A stretch of DNA of 64,000 nt from Amaurobius ferox (lineage: Eukaryota; Arthropoda; Arachnida; Araneae; Amaurobiidae), in NCBI GenBank assembly GCA_951213105.1, contig OX578142.1:8976149-9040148 (forward strand), given 5' to 3'. Both the position numbers and the translations under genes were made by a program. The notes below the pieces were generated by a model that was given only the letters and a program-made list of their open reading frames with translations, was not told the origin of the DNA and did no database searches. Below are positions 8,278-55,640 of the stretch, one piece after another. Positions within the stretch are counted from its first letter, which is position 1. Every line of letters begins with the position of its first letter.

Positions 8278-8334
8278 CTATTTGGAATAAAAATTAATAT
8301 ACATTAAAGAAACAGATAAGGAGTTACCTACAGG

Positions 8335-8766
8335 GGCCCTGTTTGCAAAAAGATATCTGACATTTTATTTGAGGCTGTGTTACAGGAGCTTGAGAACAAG
8401 ATTTTGCTTTTTTTATTCCTTAAACCTAATCTTTGGTGCCGTTATATGGATGATGTATTTATTATTTGGAACCATAGTTTGAGTGACTTCCTTAATCTTT
8501 TGGATAATGTCAATGATTTTTACACCTCTATTAATTTTACTATTGAGTCTAATTTTTCTTTACCTTTTCTGGATGTTCTTGCTTCCCATAACTCTCTTGG
8601 GTTTCATACTTCTGTTTTTCGTAATCCTACTTTCACTAATTCTTGTATTCCCACTAACTCCTCTCACCCAATTTCTTCTAAAAAAGCCTTTTTTAATGCT
8701 TATCTTAATCGTGCATTTAATATTTATTCATCTATTTTATTCATCTATTTCAGCTTTAGTTATTGA
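8335..8766 (+). pseudogene. Penelope-like element reverse transcriptase fragment
   Basis: The open frame holds the RT core: S-D-I-L-F-E-A leading into the catalytic box RYMDDVFIIW (the Y-x-D-D motif), then INFTIE and LPFLDVL, and later HPISSKKA. The order RY-DD-F-IW, then I-F-T-E, LPFLD and a P-T-(H/F)-T-N block followed by HPIS-K is characteristic of Penelope-like RTs. The fragment is about 140 residues, a small part of a full RT plus GIY-YIG protein. Upstream residues are degraded and the end runs into non-coding repeats. It lies on the opposite strand within the intron between DUF4806-like exons. Confidence 0.75.
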
Positions 8767-17759: not shown

Positions 17760-17972
17760 AGGAATCCTGTTAGAGTCATTCAGGACGGATCTTTTTAATG
17801 GCTCCTACGCAGGACGTCTCAAGACATCCAACTTAGGATAGGACGCTTTTAGGATCTTTGGGATCATTTTAGGATCTCCTGTGGAAGTCACTGGTTGTCT
17901 GGGGGACTCGAGCTCGGAACCATCCGATTACAAGACTCGCGTCTTATCTGTTATGCTACGGTGCACGTGCCC
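17760..17972 (-). repeat. GGATC-rich repeat and tRNA-like SINE head
   Basis: 17760-17890 is built of TTTAGGATCTTTGGGATC words related to the minisatellite at 6240-6760. 17902-17972 on the minus strand is the tRNA-like head of the SINE seen complete at 40841-41009: GGGCACGTGCACC start, A-box-like GCATAACAGATAAGACGCG, and T-arm-like GTTCCGAGCTCGAGTCCC. The SINE body is missing here. Confidence 0.55.
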
Positions 17973-18815
17973 AGTAGATTCTTAGTATCGAAATGATGAT
18001 TGTGAAAATAGAGGGAAGATAGAATATTTTTCGCTCAATGAACAGATTGAATAGTGATGTATTTTATAAAGGGATTTCGGTGCGCTTCAAAACAGAATGT
18101 TAAGTTACGAACTGAATATAAAATTGTGTTGTGAATTATAAGACTATGATTTTTTAAAACAAATTGAATACGGATTTCCAATGAACACAAAAATTGTATT
18201 AAGTGGATTCTAACACTACGATTTTTTTTATTTTATTTTTAAACGAATTGAATACTCAAGTATAACGTTTTCAAAATTGTGTTAAGTGAATAGGATTCAA
18301 CCCTTTTAAAAACATGAATGTAATACTTAGTTAAAATTGTATTAAGTGATATATACCAATGTGATTTTTTAAAAATAAATCTAACAGCATATATCGAAAT
18401 GATTTCGAATGTTTAAAAACAAAAATATAATAGATTACGGATTTCCAGTGAACACAAAAATTGTGTTAAGTGAACAAGATTCAACCTTTTTATGTGTTGT
18501 GCACTTAAAAACAAATTTAAACGCATCATACTTAGCTAAAATTAAGTGAACAAGATTTAACCCTTTTAAGTGTGTACTTAAAAACAAATTTATACACGTA
18601 CAAAATATATTTGGCAAGTTTTAAAATAGCGCATTATACTTAGCTAAAATTAAGTGAACAAGATTCGACCATTCCAGGATATATACCAATGTGATTTTTT
18701 AAAAATAAATCTAACTATCGAAATGATTTTTTTTTATAAAAATAATAATGAAATGATTTCGAATGAAAATTGGAACTCACATGCCACGTCTTCACAGCTT
18801 GGTGTCCACACTGCA
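17973..18815. repeat. AT-rich dispersed repeat block (third copy)
   Basis: Closely matches 41010-42120 and 43749-44860. It contains internal subrepeats based on AAGTGAACAAGATTCAACCC and TTTTAAGTGTGTACTTAAAAAC. It ends at GGTGTCCACACTGC, which is the empty insertion site of the CACAGA element described at 42135 and 44874. Confidence 0.75.
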
Positions 18816-18819
18816 AATG

Positions 18820-18905
18820 AGTTATAACCACAATATTAAAATGAGCTTATATCTATGACATCAGCATTTTAAGCTGTTGCCACCTATTTTTTATTATAGT
18901 ATATT
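18820..18905 (-). repeat. single inverted copy of the 98-bp repeat
   Basis: Contains, on the minus strand, GGCAACAGCTTAAAATGCTG followed by a CATAGATATAAG-like run, matching one unit of the tandem repeat at 31872-32170. Confidence 0.65.
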
Positions 18906-19043
18906 TTAATAACTGAATATTTTAAGGGTCTGATACTAAATAAACAAGTTTGAATGAGATTGATATATAATTTCAAATGTATATTCGATTTTTTTTTTAA
19001 TATATGCTTTAATTTTTTTTATGTGTTGTAAAATTTAGTTTTC

Positions 19044-19122
19044 GTGCCGGGGTTCGAACCCGGAACTAAAAAGCATCCATGGACCAGTTGGTGAACGCTC
19101 GGCCAACTGCTCCATAGACGCT
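19044..19122 (-). tRNA. tRNA-like sequence (class II-like), pseudogene or SINE head
   Basis: On the minus strand: A box with TTGGCCGAGCG and a perfect five-pair T arm (CCGGG-TTCGAAC-CCCGG). The acceptor stem (GCGTCTA start) does not pair well with the 3' side, and the D/anticodon region carries an extra CCAACTGG inverted block. It resembles a Ser/Leu-type tRNA but is probably a tRNA-derived repeat head. It lies 110 bp upstream of the Polinton-like cassette. Confidence 0.45.
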
Positions 19123-19231
19123 TGATAACAATTTGCTATTTAACCTTCTCTACCATATTTAAACTAGCGGCGCCCTCTATTGGCAGAGAACTTTATTATT
19201 TATTCAATAATTTTTTTTTTAATTTAGCGAG

Positions 19232-19423
19232 ATGAAGTGTGTGACATTTTCGGATTACGTACACATTGTGTACATACCCCACGATGAAGATCGCAAAGGA
19301 TTCTGGGAGATTGATGCATATCGATTTAAAGATAGAATATTAAGATTTGAAAAATTATTTTCATGTGTTTATAAGAAGAATAAAACAGAGGAACGTCTCA
19401 TTTCGAAAGATGGCTTCGCGTGA
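19232..19423 (+). CDS. PPP1R15/GADD34-like small protein (Polinton-associated)
   Basis: A 63-residue ORF. Residues 3-6 (CVTF) sit where PPP1R15 proteins carry the K-V-x-F motif that docks protein phosphatase 1. Residues 19-40 contain E-D-R-K-G-F-W-E, then A at 29, R-F, and D-R-I-L-R-F-E, matching the R-K-G-x-W-E-x-x-A-x-x-R-x-R-F/I-x-x-R-I pattern of the eIF2-alpha-targeting C-terminal module of GADD34/CReP and their viral counterparts. The family directs PP1 to phosphorylated eIF2-alpha and restores translation during stress; that role here is inference from motifs. The 3' end overlaps the next ORF by 14 nt. No upstream exon was found, so it appears to be a stand-alone viral-type gene rather than part of a host PPP1R15 gene. 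Confidence 0.6.
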   Translation: MKCVTFSDYVHIVYIPHDEDRKGFWEIDAYRFKDRILRFEKLFSCVYKKNKTEERLISKDGFA

Positions 19424-19562
19424 AGAGGTTATCGTTACGTGTGTATATTTTTTCTTACTGTTTGTGGTATACATTGTGTCGGAAGTCTTATTAGGAGTGA
19501 CACTACCGAGAAATATTTTATTACATTTGAATGATACTGTCAATATTTCCCTTGCAAGCTGA
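19410..19562 (+). CDS. small single-pass membrane protein
   Basis: A 50-residue ORF from ATG 19410. A short charged N-terminus (A-S-R-E-E) is followed by a hydrophobic helix at residues 7-30 (V-I-V-T-C-V-Y-F-F-L-L-F-V-V-Y-I-V), then a polar tail. It overlaps the preceding ORF by 14 nt, and its TGA overlaps the integrase ATG (TGATG at 19560-19564). Small membrane proteins are common in Polintons and adintoviruses but this one matches no family I recognise. The longer reading from 19347 is less likely because it reads through the upstream gene. Confidence 0.5.
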   Translation: MASREEVIVTCVYFFLLFVVYIVSEVLLGVTLPRNILLHLNDTVNISLAS

Positions 19563-20197
19563 TGGATTTAACATATCAAGACCCCCGACACCCTGCCAGC
19601 TTTGGTGGAGTAGATGCTCTATATCGCGCTCGTCACGGAAAAGTGAGCAAGAAGAATATAAAGGCATGGTTGGAGAGTGTAGACGCCTACACACTGCACA
19701 AGCCTGTTCAACGAAAATTTTTAATGAATCGTGTAATTTTACACGGCATAGACCATCAATGGCAAGTGGATTTAGCCGACATGTCTTCATTGAAAAATCA
19801 TAGTGACGGTTTCCTGTATATTTTAACCTGTATTGACATTTTATCCAAATACGCATGGGCAATACCACTAAAGCAAAAGTGTGGAGCAGATATTTTAGAG
19901 GCTTTTCAAACCATATTCGCAGAACGTATTCCCAAATCATTACAGACAGACCAAGGTACTGAATTTAAAAATAAACAATTTCAGAGGTATTTGAAAGAGA
20001 ATAAAGTGAAGTTTTTTACAACTTTTAACACAACAAAAGCCTCAGTTGTTGAGCGCTTTAATCGGACCTTGAAATCGAAAATGTGGAAATACTTTACCAG
20101 TCAAAATACATATCGTTATTTGGATGTGTTGGATTCGCTCATACACAGTTATAATCACACTTTTCACTCTAGCATTAAGAAAGCCCCGTTGAAGTGA
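19562..20197 (+). CDS. Polinton/adintovirus retroviral-type integrase, core
   Basis: 211 residues starting with D-P-R-H-P-A-S-F-G-G-V-D-A-L-Y, the usual start of Polinton integrases, so the N-terminus is complete. The rve catalytic core is present: D70 in W-Q-V-D-L-A-D, D130 in Q-T-D-Q-G-T-E-F and E164 in V-V-E-R-F-N-R-T-L. This is the D-D-E triad of retroviral-type integrases that insert linear viral or transposon DNA. The reading frame ends at TGA 20195-20197, where a frameshift separates it from its C-terminal chromodomain part. All three catalytic residues are kept, so decay is recent or limited. Confidence 0.9.
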   Translation: MDLTYQDPRHPASFGGVDALYRARHGKVSKKNIKAWLESVDAYTLHKPVQRKFLMNRVILHGIDHQWQVDLADMSSLKNHSDGFLYILTCIDILSKYAWAIPLKQKCGADILEAFQTIFAERIPKSLQTDQGTEFKNKQFQRYLKENKVKFFTTFNTTKASVVERFNRTLKSKMWKYFTSQNTYRYLDVLDSLIHSYNHTFHSSIKKAPLK

Positions 20198-20601
20198 ATA
20201 AGAATAATGAAGCGCAAGTGTGGAATACCCTTTATAGTAATTCTTCTACACGTATCTCAAAATGTATTTTAAACGCGGGAGATGTTGTGCGAGTATCCAA
20301 AGCAAAAATGACCTTTGAAAAGGGATACGAAACAAACTGGTTTGAAGAACTTTTTAAAGTTACAGAATGTGTTAAAAGAGAGCCTGCTGTTTACAGAATT
20401 AAATATTTACTAGGAGAAGAGATTCAAGGAACTTTTTACTTGCAAGAATTGCAGAAAGTGAGAATGAAAGAGGAATATCCGATCGAGCACGTTTTAAAGA
20501 AACGATATCGAAAAAAACATTTGGAATATTTTGTGAAATATCGTGGATACCCTGCCAAGTTTAACCAGTGGATTCCTGCATCTCATTTATCCACATTATA
20601 A
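20194..20601 (+). pseudogene. integrase C-terminal part with chromodomain, frameshifted
   Basis: Continues the integrase in another frame: N-K-N-N-E-A-Q-V-W follows the core as in the family. An SH3-like segment (G-D-V-V-R-V, then F-E-K-G-Y, W-F-E-E-L-F) spans residues 29-57. Residues 96-133 form a chromodomain with E-Y-F-V-K-Y-R-G-Y-P and N-Q-W-I-P-A-S-H-L. The chromodomain is thought to steer integration to particular chromatin. A single-nucleotide loss near 20194 explains the break. No independent start is expected. Confidence 0.75.
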
Positions 20602-20639: not shown

Positions 20640-21391
20640 ATGAGTTTCTACGTGACACTACCGAGCGACAGCTCGATGAGTTTTTTCCCGGAGAATAAAA
20701 TTTCACATCTTATTACAAGATTGCCCGCCCCTATAGAGCTAAAGGGCGCATGGGAGATAGGCCTAACAGAGTTTTATCCGCATACCTGGATGAATATCAC
20801 TGCTCAGAACAATTTTATTGGATTTGATCTAGGTGATGGGAAAATGATTGGCGAAGAATCCCACCTGGATTTTACGAAACCATTCCCGATGTTTTAAAGG
20901 CTATATTCATTAAAGAACACCAAAACAAGATATTCTTCAATTATAGTCCTATCACGAAACGAGTTCGCATTAAAGTAAAGAACAAGGCAAGAGTGATTTT
21001 ACAAGATGGCCTAGCCCAAGTGTTGGGTTTCGAGCCCATGGTGATTTCTTCAGAATCTGATCATGAAGTGATGAGCGAAGGAATCTATGTAGCAGATGTA
21101 AACGCACATTATCGTGTACTGTTTGTATATTCAGACATTGTAGAACCACAAATTGTGGGCGACGTAGTGGCGCCTCTTTTACGTATCGTTAAAGTCACTG
21201 GAAATGATAGAGAATTGGTTTCCATTAAATTCGATCGACCTCACTACCTACCCGTGAGTAGAAAAATGATCGACACTCTGGAAATCGTTATAAGAACGCA
21301 CACAGGAGCACTGACGCCATTTGAACGCGGAAGCTCATACGTGAAACTACACTTCGCCAAAAGTACCTCTCATAATGTATGTTCCTTATGA
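20640..21391 (+). pseudogene. Polinton/adintovirus capsid-type protein, frameshifted
   Basis: From ATG 20640 the protein begins M-S-F-Y-V-T-L-P-S-D-S-S, then P-E-N-K-I-S, G-A-W-E-I-G-L and P-H-T-W, a start that recurs beside integrases in Polinton-like clusters of many invertebrates. The first frame stops at 20897. The second part resumes at about 20993-21391 with L-G-F-E-P, D-I-V-E-P-Q-I-V-G-D, L-L-R-I-V, D-R-P-H-Y-L-P-V and the terminal T-G-A-L-T-P-F-E-R-G. At least one frameshift lies between 20890 and 20990. It is likely a virion component (penton or minor capsid type); which one cannot be settled by reading. Length, about 240-250 residues in all, is shorter than typical relatives, so an internal deletion is possible. 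Confidence 0.65.
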
Positions 21392-21470
21392 ATGCTGTAA
21401 AAAATCCTTCGAAGACTATTATGTTAACCAAACAGGTCAAGGCAGGGACGTAAGTACCCGGGGGGGGGGG
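21375..21470 (+). pseudogene. pX-like Polinton protein, N-terminal fragment
   Basis: ATG at 21375 overlaps the end of the capsid-type ORF by 17 nt in another frame. Early residues include D-Y-Y-V-N-Q-T-G-Q-G, resembling the Y-Y-x-x-Q-(A/S)-G-x-G signature that opens the small basic/amphipathic virion protein following the capsid gene in Polintons. Coding character is lost in a poly-G run at 21461 and the remainder is absent. A C-terminal part of such a protein occurs at 30912-31115. Confidence 0.5.
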
Positions 21471-29880: not shown

Positions 29881-30797
29881 AAGTGTAATATGCACCCACT
29901 CCAGTTGTATATTATAGATCACTGTTATACGAAGTTTTTTGGCTTCGGAGCCCCTTTTTGAAATTTAATTTAATACCGGGACCCCAAAATGAGAAAAAGT
30001 CCAAATTGTGTGCATCAAAATTCTTTAATTTTCTGTAAATTTACACGAAACTATAACGCACGTTGAAAAACTCTGCATTGCTCAATGTTAATTTCAAACC
30101 AAATTTATACGCATACGATCCACACACCTGGAAAAAAATAAAGAAAATAAACGATCCTTTCTCTAGGAGAGCTCAGGTATGTGCAACCATCGGAGAGAAA
30201 CCGCAGTCCTCCCCACATCATTAAGGGAGATGCATTTTTTAAAAATAAAATGTAGTATTTAAAAAAAAATTGTTAGAATGCGATGATACACACAACTTTC
30301 TATAGAATTCAAACTGTAGAACTGAGCTAATCTTCCTGTTTAGGATGCTGCGAAATAAATATCAGATAACCTAAAAAATACAATTTAGATGTATTTAAGA
30401 ATATGTGTATATTCACATGCAGGTAGATTTTCTATTGGATCATTTTGAATTTTTTTTTTACGTACGAAATTTAATACTTTTTCAAATATATTTAAAATTT
30501 TGTTAATTCTTACCCTAGATACTTGCCTTGTTTTAAATGGTAGCTAAAGGTCTGGGCATTTGCACAACACATCCGATAATTAATAAAAAATGTATAATTA
30601 TTTATAAATAAACAAAGAAAACCCAAAAACAGTCTCAAAACCCAAAATTTGGTTTTGAGACTTTTTTTTTAATTGGGGCATGGGACATATGCACAAAACA
30701 TTCGAAAATTAAAACAAATAATTGCCGTGTAGACTTTGAACTGCACAAATGTCACTAGAACAGCAATTCACTCGTCCCAAAACAAAAGTTAACTCAC

Positions 30798-31115
30798 TTG
30801 TTTATACAGTCTGAAATTTTCAATATTAGTCGGAAAAATTCCCTTCACACACCCCCAGCCAAGATTGACCACTTACATCCCTGGGTCAAGGCCTTAATTA
30901 CTACCAAGGAAGCACTTTTCAGAAAGGCTATGGCTTTGGAAGCCTTTTTCAGAGCGGCTGTTCCACTTTTAAAGTTGGGGGCGAAAGCCGTCGGAAGACA
31001 AATGTGGCATAGCGGAATGAATGTGTTGAATGACGTAACTGGAGGAGAGAATTTTCAAGCGGCTGTCCAACGCGCCACCATGCCTGCTCATAACAGACAC
31101 AATGCCTGCTCATAA
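30798..31115 (+). pseudogene. pX-like Polinton protein, C-terminal part
   Basis: The open frame is convincing from about 30912: a helix with F-F-R-A-A-V-P-L-L-K-L-G-A-K-A-V-G-R-Q, then G-M-N-V-L-N-D-V-T-G-G-E-N-F. The pattern F-R-x-x-(L/V)-P-L-L-K-x-G-A-K-x-(V/I)-G-(K/R) followed by G-x-x-V-L-x-D-V-x-x-G-x-N-F recurs in the small virion protein of Polintons. The upstream ~38 residues are probably not genuine. The frame ends within a 22-bp tandem repeat. Its N-terminal half is not here; a matching N-terminal start lies at 21375. Confidence 0.6.
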
Positions 31116-31167
31116 CAGACACAATGCCTGCTCATAACAGACACAATGCCTGCTCATAACAGACCTG
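31080..31167 (+). repeat. 22-bp tandem repeat, four copies
   Basis: ATGCCTGCTCATAACAGACA begins at 31080, 31102, 31124 and 31146. Because 22 is not a multiple of three, reading into the second unit gives TAA. The first and fourth ATG are in the same frame, since 66 is divisible by three. Confidence 0.95.
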
Positions 31168-31562
31168 CTAACGCCACTCTACTCGCGGATGTTGAGCCAC
31201 TCCATACGTTCTCGGTGGGCTTTTTATATTTCATCAACATTTACATTTGGAACTATTCTGTGCGCCTGCACATTCGCATATACGCAGACGTACGCAGAGA
31301 ACTTGTCCGAACGAGACATGGCGTGCTCATGACACCTGCAACGTGGAGCGAATTTACAACGAAAATATTTAACTTTAGCGATGTGTACAAAAGTAGTGGC
31401 TTTGTGGCGAACAACCAACTCCTTGTTCTCAACACCGATGGTCAATGTCACATGCAGCAGCTCTACAAATCCGGTGATGGCCCTTTTCATTTAAAGCCAT
31501 TGGCAGTACAACTGTCGATGGAGCAAATAAATGTGCTAAGGGGGCTTCACAATACAGTGTGA
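31146..31562 (+). CDS. PC4-like (SUB1-type) ssDNA-binding domain ORF
   Basis: 138 residues from the fourth ATG of the repeat. Residues 35-65 read V-R-L-H-I-R-I-Y-A-D, R-R-E-L-V-R-T-R-H-G-V-L-M-T-P-A-T-W-S-E-F, matching the PC4 pattern (V-x-I-R-x-Y/F, G-x-(L/E)-x-P-T-(K/R)-(K/R)-G-(I/V)-x-(L/M)-T-x-x-x-W). PC4 folds bind single-stranded DNA and occur in transcription coactivators and in DNA viruses and mobile elements. The downstream ~70 residues (F-V-A-N-N-Q-L-L-V-L-N-T, V-L-R-G-L-H-N) match no family known to me. Given the adjacent pX-like sequence it is probably Polinton-encoded. Confidence 0.5.
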   Translation: MPAHNRPANATLLADVEPLHTFSVGFLYFINIYIWNYSVRLHIRIYADVRRELVRTRHGVLMTPATWSEFTTKIFNFSDVYKSSGFVANNQLLVLNTDGQCHMQQLYKSGDGPFHLKPLAVQLSMEQINVLRGLHNTV

Positions 31563-40840: not shown

Positions 40841-41009
40841 CAGTGTGATGTAGTTAAAGCGCCCTCTGGCGAAAGTTGATGAAGTGCATCTATCGGCATT
40901 TTTTTTCCAAAAGAATTTAATTTCTCACTTGTCAGATACGGGACTCGAACTCGGAACCATCCGATTACAAGGCTCGCGTCTTATTTGTTATGCTACGGTG
41001 TACGTGCCC
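40841..41009 (-). repeat. tRNA-derived SINE
   Basis: On the minus strand a tRNA-like head (GGGCACGTACACC, A-box-like GCATAACAAATAAGACGCG, CTTGTAA anticodon-loop-like segment, T-arm-like GAGTTCGAGTCCCG) is followed by GAGAAATTAAATTC, GATAGATG and AGAGGGCGCTTTAACTAC. This is the usual layout of a pol III-transcribed SINE. The stems are imperfect, so it is not a working tRNA. Confidence 0.6.
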
Positions 41010-42134
41010 AGTAGATTCTTAGCATCGAAATGATGATTGTGAAAATAGAGGGAAGATAGAATATTTTTCTCTCAATGAACAGATATAATAGTGATGTATT
41101 TTATAAAGGGATTTCGGTGCGCTTCAAAACAGAATGTTAAGTTACGAACTGAATATAAAATTGTGTTGTGAATTATAAGACTATGATTTTGTAAAACAAA
41201 TTGAATACGGATTTCCAATGAACACAAAAATTGTATTAAGTGGATTCTAACATTACGATTTTTTTTATTTTTTTATTAAACGAATTGAATACTCAAGTAT
41301 AGTTACGCCATTTTCAAAATTGTGTTAAGTGAATAGGATTCAACCCTTTTAAAAACATGAATGTAATACTTAGTTAAAATTGTATTAAGTGATATATACC
41401 AATGTGATTTTTTAAAAATAAATCTAACAGCATATATCGAAATGATTTTGAATGTTTAAAAACAAAAATATAATAGATTACGGATTTCCAGTGAACACAA
41501 AAATTGTGTTAAATGAATAGGATTCAACCCTTTTATGTGTTGTGCACTTAAAAACAAATTTAAACGCATTATACTTAGCTAAAATTAAGCGAACAAGATT
41601 CAACCCTTTTAAGTGTGTACTTAAAAACATGAATGCAATACTTAGTTAAAATTGTATTAAGTGATATATACCAATGTGATTTTTTAAAAATAAATTTAAC
41701 TATCGAAATGATTTTGAATGTTTAAAAACAAAAATATAATAGATTACGGATTTCCAGCGGACACAAAAATTGTGTTAAGTGAACAAGATTCAACCCTTTT
41801 ATGTGTTGTGCACTTAAAAACAAATTTAAACGCATTATACTTAGCTAAAATTAAGTGAACAAGATTTAACCCTTTTAAGTGTGTACTTAAAAACAAATGT
41901 ATACACGTGCAAAATATATTTGGCAAGTTTTAAAATAGCGCATTATACTTAGCTAAAATTATGTTACGTGAACAAGATTCGACCATTCCAGGATATATAC
42001 CAATGTGATTTTTTTTAAAAAAATAAATCTAACTATCGAAATGATTTTTTTTTTCTTTTTATAAAAATAATAATGAAATGATTTCGAATGAAAATTGGAA
42101 CTCACATGCCACGTCTTCACAGCTTGGTGTCCAC
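41010..42134. repeat. AT-rich dispersed block (unit A)
   Basis: Homologous to 17973-18815 and 43749-44873. Multiple subrepeats of AAGTGAACAAGATTCAACCC and CGAAATGATTTTGAATG. No coding capacity. Confidence 0.75.
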
Positions 42135-43575: not shown

Positions 43576-43748
43576 CAGTGTGATGTAGTTAAAGCGCCCT
43601 CTGGCGAAAGTTGATGAAGTGCTGCCATCTATCGGCATTTTTTTTCCAAAAGAATTTAATTTCTCACTTGTCAGATACGGGACTCGAACTCGGAACCATC
43701 CGATTACAAGGCTCGCGTCTTATTTGTTATGCTACGGTGTACGTGCCC
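43576..43748 (-). repeat. tRNA-derived SINE (unit B)
   Basis: Near-identical to 40841-41009, with a 4-bp difference in the GAAGTGC(TGCC)ATC segment. Confidence 0.6.
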
Positions 43749-44873
43749 AGTAGATTCTTAGCATCGAAATGATGATTGTGAAAATAGAGGGAAGATAGAA
43801 TATTTTTCTCTCAATGAACAGATATAATAGTGATGTATTTTATAAAGGGATTTCGGTGCGCTTCAAAACAGAATGTTAAGTTACGAACTGAATATAAAAT
43901 TGTGTTGTGAATTATAAGACTATGATTTTGTAAAACAAATTGAATACGGATTTCCAATGAACACAAAAATTGTATTAAGTGGATTCTAACATTACGATTT
44001 TTTTTATTTTTTTATTAAACGAATTGAATACTCAAGTATAGTTACGCCATTTTCAAAATTGTGTTAAGTGAATAGGATTCAACCCTTTTAAAAACATGAA
44101 TGTAATACTTAGTTAAAATTGTATTAAGTGATATATACCAATGTGATTTTTTAAAAATAAATCTAACAGCATATATCGAAATGATTTTGAATGTTTAAAA
44201 ACAAAAATATAATAGATTACGGATTTCCAGTGAACACAAAAATTGTGTTAAATGAATAGGATTCAACCCTTTTATGTGTTGTGCACTTAAAAACAAATTT
44301 AAACGCATTATACTTAGCTAAAATTAAGCGAACAAGATTCAACCCTTTTAAGTGTGTACTTAAAAACATGAATGCAATACTTAGTTAAAATTGTATTAAG
44401 TGATATATACCAATGTGATTTTTTAAAAATAAATCTAACTATCGAAATGATTTTGAATGTTTAAAAACAAAAATATAATAGATTACGGATTTCCAGCGGA
44501 CACAAAAATTGTGTTAAGTGAACAAGATTCAACCCTTTTATGTGTTGTGCACTTAAAAACAAATTTAAACGCATTATACTTAGCTAAAATTAAGTGAACA
44601 AGATTTAACCCTTTTAAGTGTGTACTTAAAAACAAATGTATACACGTGCAAAATATATTTGGCAAGTTTTAAAATAGCGCATTATACTTAGCTAAAATTA
44701 TGTTACGTGAACAAGATTCGACCATTCCAGGATATATACCAATGTGATTTTTTTTAAAAAAATAAATCTAACTATCGAAATGATTTTTTTTTTCTTTTTA
44801 TAAAAATAATAATGAAATGATTTCGAATGAAAATTGGAACTCACATGCCACGTCTTCACAGCTTGGTGTCCAC
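43749..44873. repeat. AT-rich dispersed block (unit B)
   Basis: Near-identical to 41010-42134. Ends in GTGTCCAC directly before an inverted CACAGA terminus. Confidence 0.75.
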
Positions 44874-55200: not shown

Positions 55201-55318
55201 GCCAACGGCCCTACAGTGCTGAAAACACCGGTTCTTGTTAGATCACCGAAGTCAGGCAGCATCGGGGGCAGTTAGTACTTGGTTGGGTGACCACCTGGGA
55301 ACACCGCGTGCTGTTTGC
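55201..55318 (+). rRNA. 5S rRNA-like head of a SINE
   Basis: Starts GCCAACGGCCCTACAG and holds the whole pol III internal control region: GATCACCGAAGTC and GGCAGCATCGGG (A box/IE), then TTAGTACTTGG and GGGTGACCACCTGGGAACACC (C box). Length (about 118 nt) is that of a full 5S rRNA. Substitutions in both terminal stems weaken pairing, and SINE body sequence follows without a terminator, so it is more likely a 5S-derived retroposon than a working 5S gene. Confidence 0.85.
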
Positions 55319-55640
55319 ACATTTCGAGCATGGTAGCCCGGTGGTTTGTGCTGGATTTACACGCTGCAACAACTGCCGCCGTGTTCATGCGGAGTACAAT
55401 CACGTTAAACATGTGGGTCCGAAAGTCCTTTCGAGAGGTTGGTGGTAGGGAAGGAGGGTACGGTCTCTATGGACGCCCCCCCCCCCACACTGGGTTCCGG
55501 TCTAAATTGTGTGGCACTTCCCGACTGTCCAAACAGTTACCATACACCTTTCTGGTACCGGCCGTCTAATTAGTTGCTCATGTTCTCTGGATGAGTCGGA
55601 CGGTCTGAGTCTCAACAACATGTTATGTTTCTATATATAT
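55201..55640 (+). mobile_element. 5S-derived SINE (SINE3-type)
   Basis: The 5S head is followed by a body with CGAGAGGTTGGTGGTAGGG, GGAGGGTACGGTCTCTATGG, GGGTTCCGGTCTAAATTG and CCAAACAGTTACCATACACC. The central part recurs at 29650-29880 and 49415-49530. A pol III head plus shared core plus unique tail is the SINE3 layout. The 84-codon frame through it (55315-55569) is fortuitous. Confidence 0.75.

Follow-up and report, generated by a model that had tools for sequence, protein, structure and literature searches.

A putative PPP1R15-like accessory gene in a decayed Polinton fragment of the spider Amaurobius ferox

The DNA analyzed here, a stretch of 64,000 nucleotides from the genome of Amaurobius ferox that is called the window throughout, carries a mini-ORF of 63 codons plus a stop codon (positions 19232 to 19423, + strand) with matches to the PPP1R15 core. 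The mini-ORF is likely an accessory gene of a decayed Polinton/Maverick (adintovirus-like) fragment, encoding a stripped-down PPP1R15 core that would serve as a PP1-actin-eIF2-alpha adaptor. The observations underlying this explanation are the homology to PPP1R15, the presence of most of the critical residues, the intact reading frame, and the packed position among neighboring genes. Beyond these, we infer expression, binding to PP1 and actin, dephosphorylation of eIF2-alpha, and an origin from a host PPP1R15 gene. All of the evidence on the mini-ORF comes from one copy at one locus.

Results

A packed mini-ORF ahead of a Polinton-type integrase

The mini-ORF starts with ATG, has an in-frame TAA four codons upstream, and is uninterrupted over its 63 codons. 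The original prediction had described a 63-residue ORF at this position with three motifs, and all three were present: V-T-F (the V-x-F motif) at residues 4 to 6, R-K-G-F-W-E at residues 21 to 26, and R-F-K-D-R-I at residues 31 to 36. It had also described an overlap of 14 nt with the next viral-type gene; the length of the overlap was correct, and the gene overlapped was a 50-aa hydrophobic ORF with one likely membrane span (19410 to 19562, + strand), not the integrase. This membrane ORF, which has a maximum Kyte-Doolittle value over 19 residues of 2.43 and matched no Pfam family, in turn overlaps the integrase by 1 nt (TGATG). The GC content by codon position of the mini-ORF (0.41/0.29/0.35) resembles that of the membrane ORF (0.44/0.28/0.36) and the integrase (0.42/0.34/0.38), and the values for the segment directly upstream of the mini-ORF (18920 to 19231) are flatter (0.35/0.30/0.32).

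Gene order supported the predicted position ahead of a Polinton-type integrase. The integrase is present in two parts on the + strand, an N-terminal and rve part whose frame is broken near its end (19562 to 20197; rve, E = 1.1e-12) and a C-terminal part with a chromodomain in another frame (20179 to 20601; Chromo, E = 2e-9). Adjoining it on the same strand is a conserved gene for which the label “LPS” was coined in this analysis, denoting the Polinton gene behind the integrase; its frame is also broken, giving an N-terminal part (20640 to 20897) and a C-terminal part in another frame (20837 to 21391), each matched by tblastn in 6 of the 8 Polinton loci compared. Because both the integrase and the LPS gene are frame-broken, the locus was considered a decayed fragment.

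The integrase ATG at position 19562 is where residue 1 of some relatives falls (P0003 and P0006, for example), and relatives such as P0001 to P0017 match both integrase parts in sequence. Integrase relatives at E ≤ 0.001 numbered 1385 among 1443 candidates, the best 35 of the 1385 being 65 to 73% identical. The named relatives among the matches listed included Lasius niger, Araneus ventricosus, Stegodyphus dumicola, and other spiders, and it is on these names, an ant and spiders, that the element lineage is provisionally attributed to arthropods. No integrase relative was found among the INPHARED phages.

To the left, positions 17903 to 18915 (no strand assigned) consist of repeats that blastn against the window also placed at about 40.9 to 42.1, 43.7 to 44.9, and 31.9 to 32.2 kb. 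Since these repeats have copies elsewhere in the window, the left boundary of the element fragment probably lies beyond about position 18,916, on the integrase side. Among the 25 longest of the 36 inverted pairs found between 15 and 25 kb, there was no convincing pair of terminal inverted repeats, and no Pfam family for PolB, capsid proteins, ATPase, or protease was matched by 16 selected window ORFs.

Comparison with eight distant Polinton contigs

The locus was compared with eight distantly related Polinton contigs (L001 to L008) taken from records filed as bacterial assemblies. These records stand under metagenome assemblies of Ignavibacteria, Limnohabitans, and Nomurabacteria and were taken for binning contamination. 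An LPS gene, matched in one part or the other, follows the integrase in 7 of the 8 contigs, and the eighth contig ends inside its integrase. A small hydrophobic ORF stands ahead of the integrase in five contigs (19-residue maximum, 1.81 to 2.86) and, weakly, in one more (1.43); the remaining two have none (0.95 and 0.71). The small hydrophobic ORFs of the contigs have no detectable sequence similarity to the membrane ORF of the window. Taken at the level of sequence, the window has the Polinton gene order around the integrase as well as an rve integrase with a chromodomain, and the integrase of this type and the LPS gene behind it are features shared with Polintons/Mavericks and adintoviruses.

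The eight short contigs supplied 105 stop-to-stop ORFs with a minimum length of 80 aa; those with matches in the window at E ≤ 0.01 were confined to the integrase (both strands) and the LPS gene, and the window locus was for this reason taken for a fragment. Just past the LPS gene, positions 21392 to 21455 in another frame resemble by eye the beginning of the gene that comes next in the Polinton contig L003 (8378). A tblastn query taken from these positions, in one frame that differs from the frame with the resemblance, gave no match.

A survey of the ORF upstream of the integrase in other Polintons, suggested with the original prediction, did not extend the finding: the PPP1R15 motif occurred in 0 of the 8 distantly related contigs, and the best tblastn match of the mini-ORF in them (E = 0.057) fell inside the integrase region of L004. 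The contigs thus differ from the window in having no PPP1R15-like gene, and the window differs from them in holding only a fragment of an element. Because the region further upstream differs by eye from contig to contig, the mini-ORF may occupy a variable accessory slot.

Homology to the PPP1R15 core

In a search of Pfam-A, PF10488 (PP1c_bdg) matched residues 2 to 41 of the mini-ORF with E = 3.2e-5 and was the only family matched at E ≤ 10. A search with the PP1c_bdg profile had been suggested with the original prediction; the match scored 24.1 bits, just under the curated cut-off of 26.1. Among ten scrambled versions of the mini-ORF (one reversed and nine shuffled), none matched PP1c_bdg, and the best E value to any family was 0.032. 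NCBIfam gave one meaningless match (best E, 0.13).

Sequence searches of the Protein Data Bank placed PPP1R15B chains at ranks 1, 2, and 4 (E = 0.0014, 0.0019, and 0.023) and the asfarvirus protein DP71L (9NB9) at rank 3 (E = 0.0076); the next match was unrelated, with E = 0.98. For scale, in such searches the PPP1R15B core matched DP71L with 28.1 bits, and the mini-ORF matched PPP1R15B with 21.9 bits. The Smith-Waterman score of the mini-ORF against the human PPP1R15B core was 75, a value reached by 0 of 20,000 shuffles (largest, 50), and its local alignment with PPP1R15A scored 39, which 3 of 5,000 shuffles reached. With a 45-aa PPP1R15B core as the probe, the mini-ORF came first (E = 3.7e-5; next piece, 0.57) among six-frame pieces of at least 25 aa from the window and the eight Polinton loci. 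A motif pattern, composed with the mini-ORF in view, occurred once in the six frames of the window and the eight loci and in none of 60 Markov-1 random windows. In the alignment, the mini-ORF is 50% identical to the PPP1R15B core and 32% identical to the PPP1R15A core, and 12 columns are invariant between it and both human proteins. These profile, pairwise, and Protein Data Bank matches supported the PPP1R15/GADD34-like assignment: the mini-ORF product is related to the PPP1R15 (GADD34/CReP) core.

A protein search with the mini-ORF by itself gave no candidate with three 5-residue words in common. A search with a three-sequence alignment among candidates of 35 to 116 aa yielded 21 PP1c_bdg proteins. 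Eighteen of these have no source name and read as vertebrate, 10 being PPP1R15B-like and 8 PPP1R15A-like; the other three were shearwaterpox SWPV1-205 (P0139) and two named cellular or structure records. Their identity to the mini-ORF was 32 to 53% over at least half of the sequence, except that P0140 and P0141 matched over a shorter part. Protein, alignment, and DNA-pattern scans of viral_contigs, all limited by the patterns used, returned no relative of the mini-ORF or the integrase; these scans do not show absence, since they depend on short patterns and also missed known viral PPP1R15 proteins.

Docking residues, spacing, and predicted fold

From V4 to W25, the mini-ORF aligns with PPP1R15B without a gap, pairing V4 with V641, F6 with F643, I15 with I652, R21 with R658, and W25 with W662. 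The RVxF-type PP1 docking motif K-C-V-T-F (V4 and F6; 19235 to 19249, + strand) lies opposite K-K-V-T-F of PPP1R15B; the RVxF Val is immediately preceded by Cys, not Lys or Arg, and K2 is one step earlier. The positions equivalent to the phi-phi site are V13 and I15 (19268 to 19276, + strand), of which the first is substituted relative to Y650 of PPP1R15B. R-K-G-F-W-E (19292 to 19309, + strand) includes the Arg-site residue R21, and R-F-K-D-R-I (19322 to 19339, + strand), located past a 3-residue deletion, includes F32 and I36, which are aligned with F672 and I676.

According to PMC4394352 (eLife, 2015), V641 and F643 of PPP1R15B occupy the RVxF groove, Y650 and I652 lie near the phi-phi site, and R658 lies in the Arg pocket. 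The same paper states that changes at R658, W662, F672, or I676 weaken the actin response of PPP1R15 and that the C-terminal end of the core matters for actin. Judged against these positions, most of the PP1-binding and actin-response residues are kept in the mini-ORF. The cores of PPP1R15B/CReP and PPP1R15A/GADD34 have the same RVxF, second phi-phi, Arg-site, Trp, Phe, and Ile positions, and W25, D28, R31, F32, R35, and I36 of the mini-ORF, which go beyond plain PP1 docking, are common to both human proteins.

The GADD34/CReP spacing claimed in the original prediction was found in part. It holds between V-x-F and Trp, a stretch aligned without gaps to PPP1R15B though not to PPP1R15A, and again between Phe and Ile; between Trp and Phe it fails. 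Here the mini-ORF has 3 residues fewer than PPP1R15B, with a spacing of 7; of the 21 PP1c_bdg proteins, 20 have a spacing of 10 (P0141 is too short to span it), a feature common to the relatives examined rather than a stated requirement of PF10488. SWPV1-205, an avipoxvirus protein with PF10488 in 100 aa, has the usual spacing of 10. The deletion lies where the core is believed to pack onto actin; the C-terminal end, important for actin in PPP1R15, is not clearly conserved in the mini-ORF.

AlphaFold2, given 11 relatives in the alignment, modeled residues 1 to 23 as extended and residues 24 to 27 and 29 to 60 as helices. The mean pLDDT was 63.8 for the whole mini-ORF, with the best value at residues 31 to 40 (79) and lower values at residues 51 to 60 (52) and 61 to 63 (40). 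The model agrees with a PP1-binding part in extended form that leads into a helix facing actin, for which it is weak evidence. Folded alone, unlike in the model with relatives, the mini-ORF gave strands and short helices at a mean pLDDT of 51, a result that was uninformative.

Other features of the window

A tRNA-like stretch at about 19035 to 19125 (− strand), about 100 bases before the mini-ORF and with a B-box-like GGTTCGAACC, was rejected by ARAGORN and by Rfam (E ≤ 1). The only window match to Rfam at the gathering score was a full-length 5S rRNA match at 55201 to 55319 (+ strand; RF00001, 77.4 bits). A long AT-rich repeat of about 0.9 to 1.2 kb with short internal repeats is present in three copies (40940 to 42134, 43679 to 44873, and 17903 to 18809), and a reverse-transcriptase fragment at 8320 to 8766 matched RVT_1 under the cut-off (E = 2.1e-4). 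Two adjacent ORFs at 30759 to 31562 look like a second Polinton remnant; they matched no Pfam family, and a comparison with the eight Polinton contigs gave nothing significant.

Discussion

Proposed mechanism

We lean slightly toward a fuller account in which an arthropod Polinton/adintovirus lineage captured a host PPP1R15 core and, with this core in shortened form, maintains eIF2-alpha in the dephosphorylated state. In the mechanism proposed for the mini-ORF, the N-terminal half, in extended form (V4 and F6; V13/I15; R21), would lie along the host PP1 catalytic subunit at its RVxF, phi-phi, and Arg sites, and W25 with the following helix (F32, I36, and onward) would hold G-actin against PP1. 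The W25/helix part would also help to form a cradle for phosphorylated eIF2-alpha, the holophosphatase would remove the Ser51 phosphate, and viral translation could continue while host eIF2-alpha kinases respond to infection.

PMC10998612 states that a core of about 70 residues is common to the larger mammalian PPP1R15 proteins and their viral and invertebrate counterparts and that this core, combined with PP1 and G-actin, can dephosphorylate the N-terminal domain of eIF2-alpha in vitro. It also places an eIF2-gamma-binding helix of cellular PPP1R15s, features of which are kept in ICP34.5, outside the core. PMC7615683, which reports this helix in cellular PPP1R15s, ICP34.5, and DP71L, argues that substrate recruitment needs such a region N-terminal to the core. 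The mini-ORF, with its 63 residues, has no room for an eIF2-gamma-binding helix and, compared with cellular PPP1R15, has neither the N-terminal membrane region nor the eIF2-recruiting region.

Alternative explanations

It is unlikely that the mini-ORF is instead the last exon of a host PPP1R15 gene or duplicate, with a Polinton fragment inserted, or brought by rearrangement, directly behind it. An acceptor-like site (TTTAG), rich in pyrimidines, ends at position 19227, four bases before the ATG. Under a simple rule, this AT-rich window has 2.4 such sites per kb and strand, which gives a chance of about 6% for one within 25 nt. PMC4394352 gives the PPP1R15 core a separate exon, and 7 of the 10 PPP1R15B-like proteins (P0123 to P0127, P0132, and P0136) have Q directly before V-T-F, which we took to indicate translation of exons across a CAG acceptor. 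Against an exon, the stop codon of the mini-ORF lies 14 nt inside the next ORF, so that the element could not end between the two; the junction between the membrane ORF and the integrase is equally tight, making two successive overlaps on one strand, and an exon would require a breakpoint exactly where two reading frames meet. The Trp-to-Phe spacing is unlike that of any of the 20 relatives long enough to span it, which for the most part look cellular, and the codon-position GC is like that of the neighboring ORFs. A viral gene is clearly favored over a host exon.

If the mini-ORF is a Polinton gene, it could still have another job, either titrating PP1 or directing it at a different substrate, viral or host, with eIF2-alpha not being the target; we give this a somewhat smaller chance than the exon. 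The part best kept is the one that binds PP1, gapless against PPP1R15B, and the deletion affects the actin-facing part. The substrate-recruiting region that the argument of PMC7615683 requires is also missing, and if that argument is right, the mini-ORF product would bind PP1 yet have a weak effect on eIF2-alpha. The adaptor reading is still preferred because the six residues from W25 to I36 shared with both human proteins exceed what plain PP1 docking involves. A chance resemblance of a meaningless short ORF has very little probability: the mini-ORF is indeed short, present in one copy, and just under the Pfam cut-off, but two separate libraries (Pfam and the Protein Data Bank) agree, the scrambled controls fail, and the invariant columns are shared with both human proteins.

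Relation to known PPP1R15 proteins and significance

The asfarvirus protein DP71L, the herpesvirus protein ICP34.5, the granulovirus protein coGV-gp036, and shearwaterpox SWPV1-205 are likewise PPP1R15 cores in DNA viruses. The carriers of these four proteins are large free DNA viruses, whereas the mini-ORF sits in an integrating Polinton-class element and has a shortened linker. The PPP1R15 proteins of herpes simplex virus and the insect granulovirus (coGV-gp036) are named in a figure legend of PMC4394352. As for cellular proteins, the mini-ORF differs from PPP1R15B also in the first phi-phi residue, which is Val and not Tyr.

A literature search, with most subscription papers outside its scope, found no report of a PPP1R15-type protein in a Polinton or adintovirus, in keeping with the original prediction, which knew of no described example in this position; GADD34, phosphatase, and eIF2 are not mentioned in PMC11071296 or PMC11071308. 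The PPP1R15 core itself is known in viruses, and what is new here is the class of element and the shortened linker. The latter poses a biochemical question, namely, whether a PPP1R15 core that is without three of the residues between Trp and Phe still works with actin.

If the mini-ORF is part of the element, PPP1R15-type proteins would be carried by Polintons as well as by herpesviruses, asfarviruses, granuloviruses, and avipoxviruses. This would argue that arthropod Polintons meet an eIF2-alpha kinase response and so behave as viruses. On the fuller account given above, the lineage would provide the first known case of an integrating Polinton-class element that brings its own counter to translational shut-off, which would be a sign that such elements have a true infectious phase in which they face host stress kinases.
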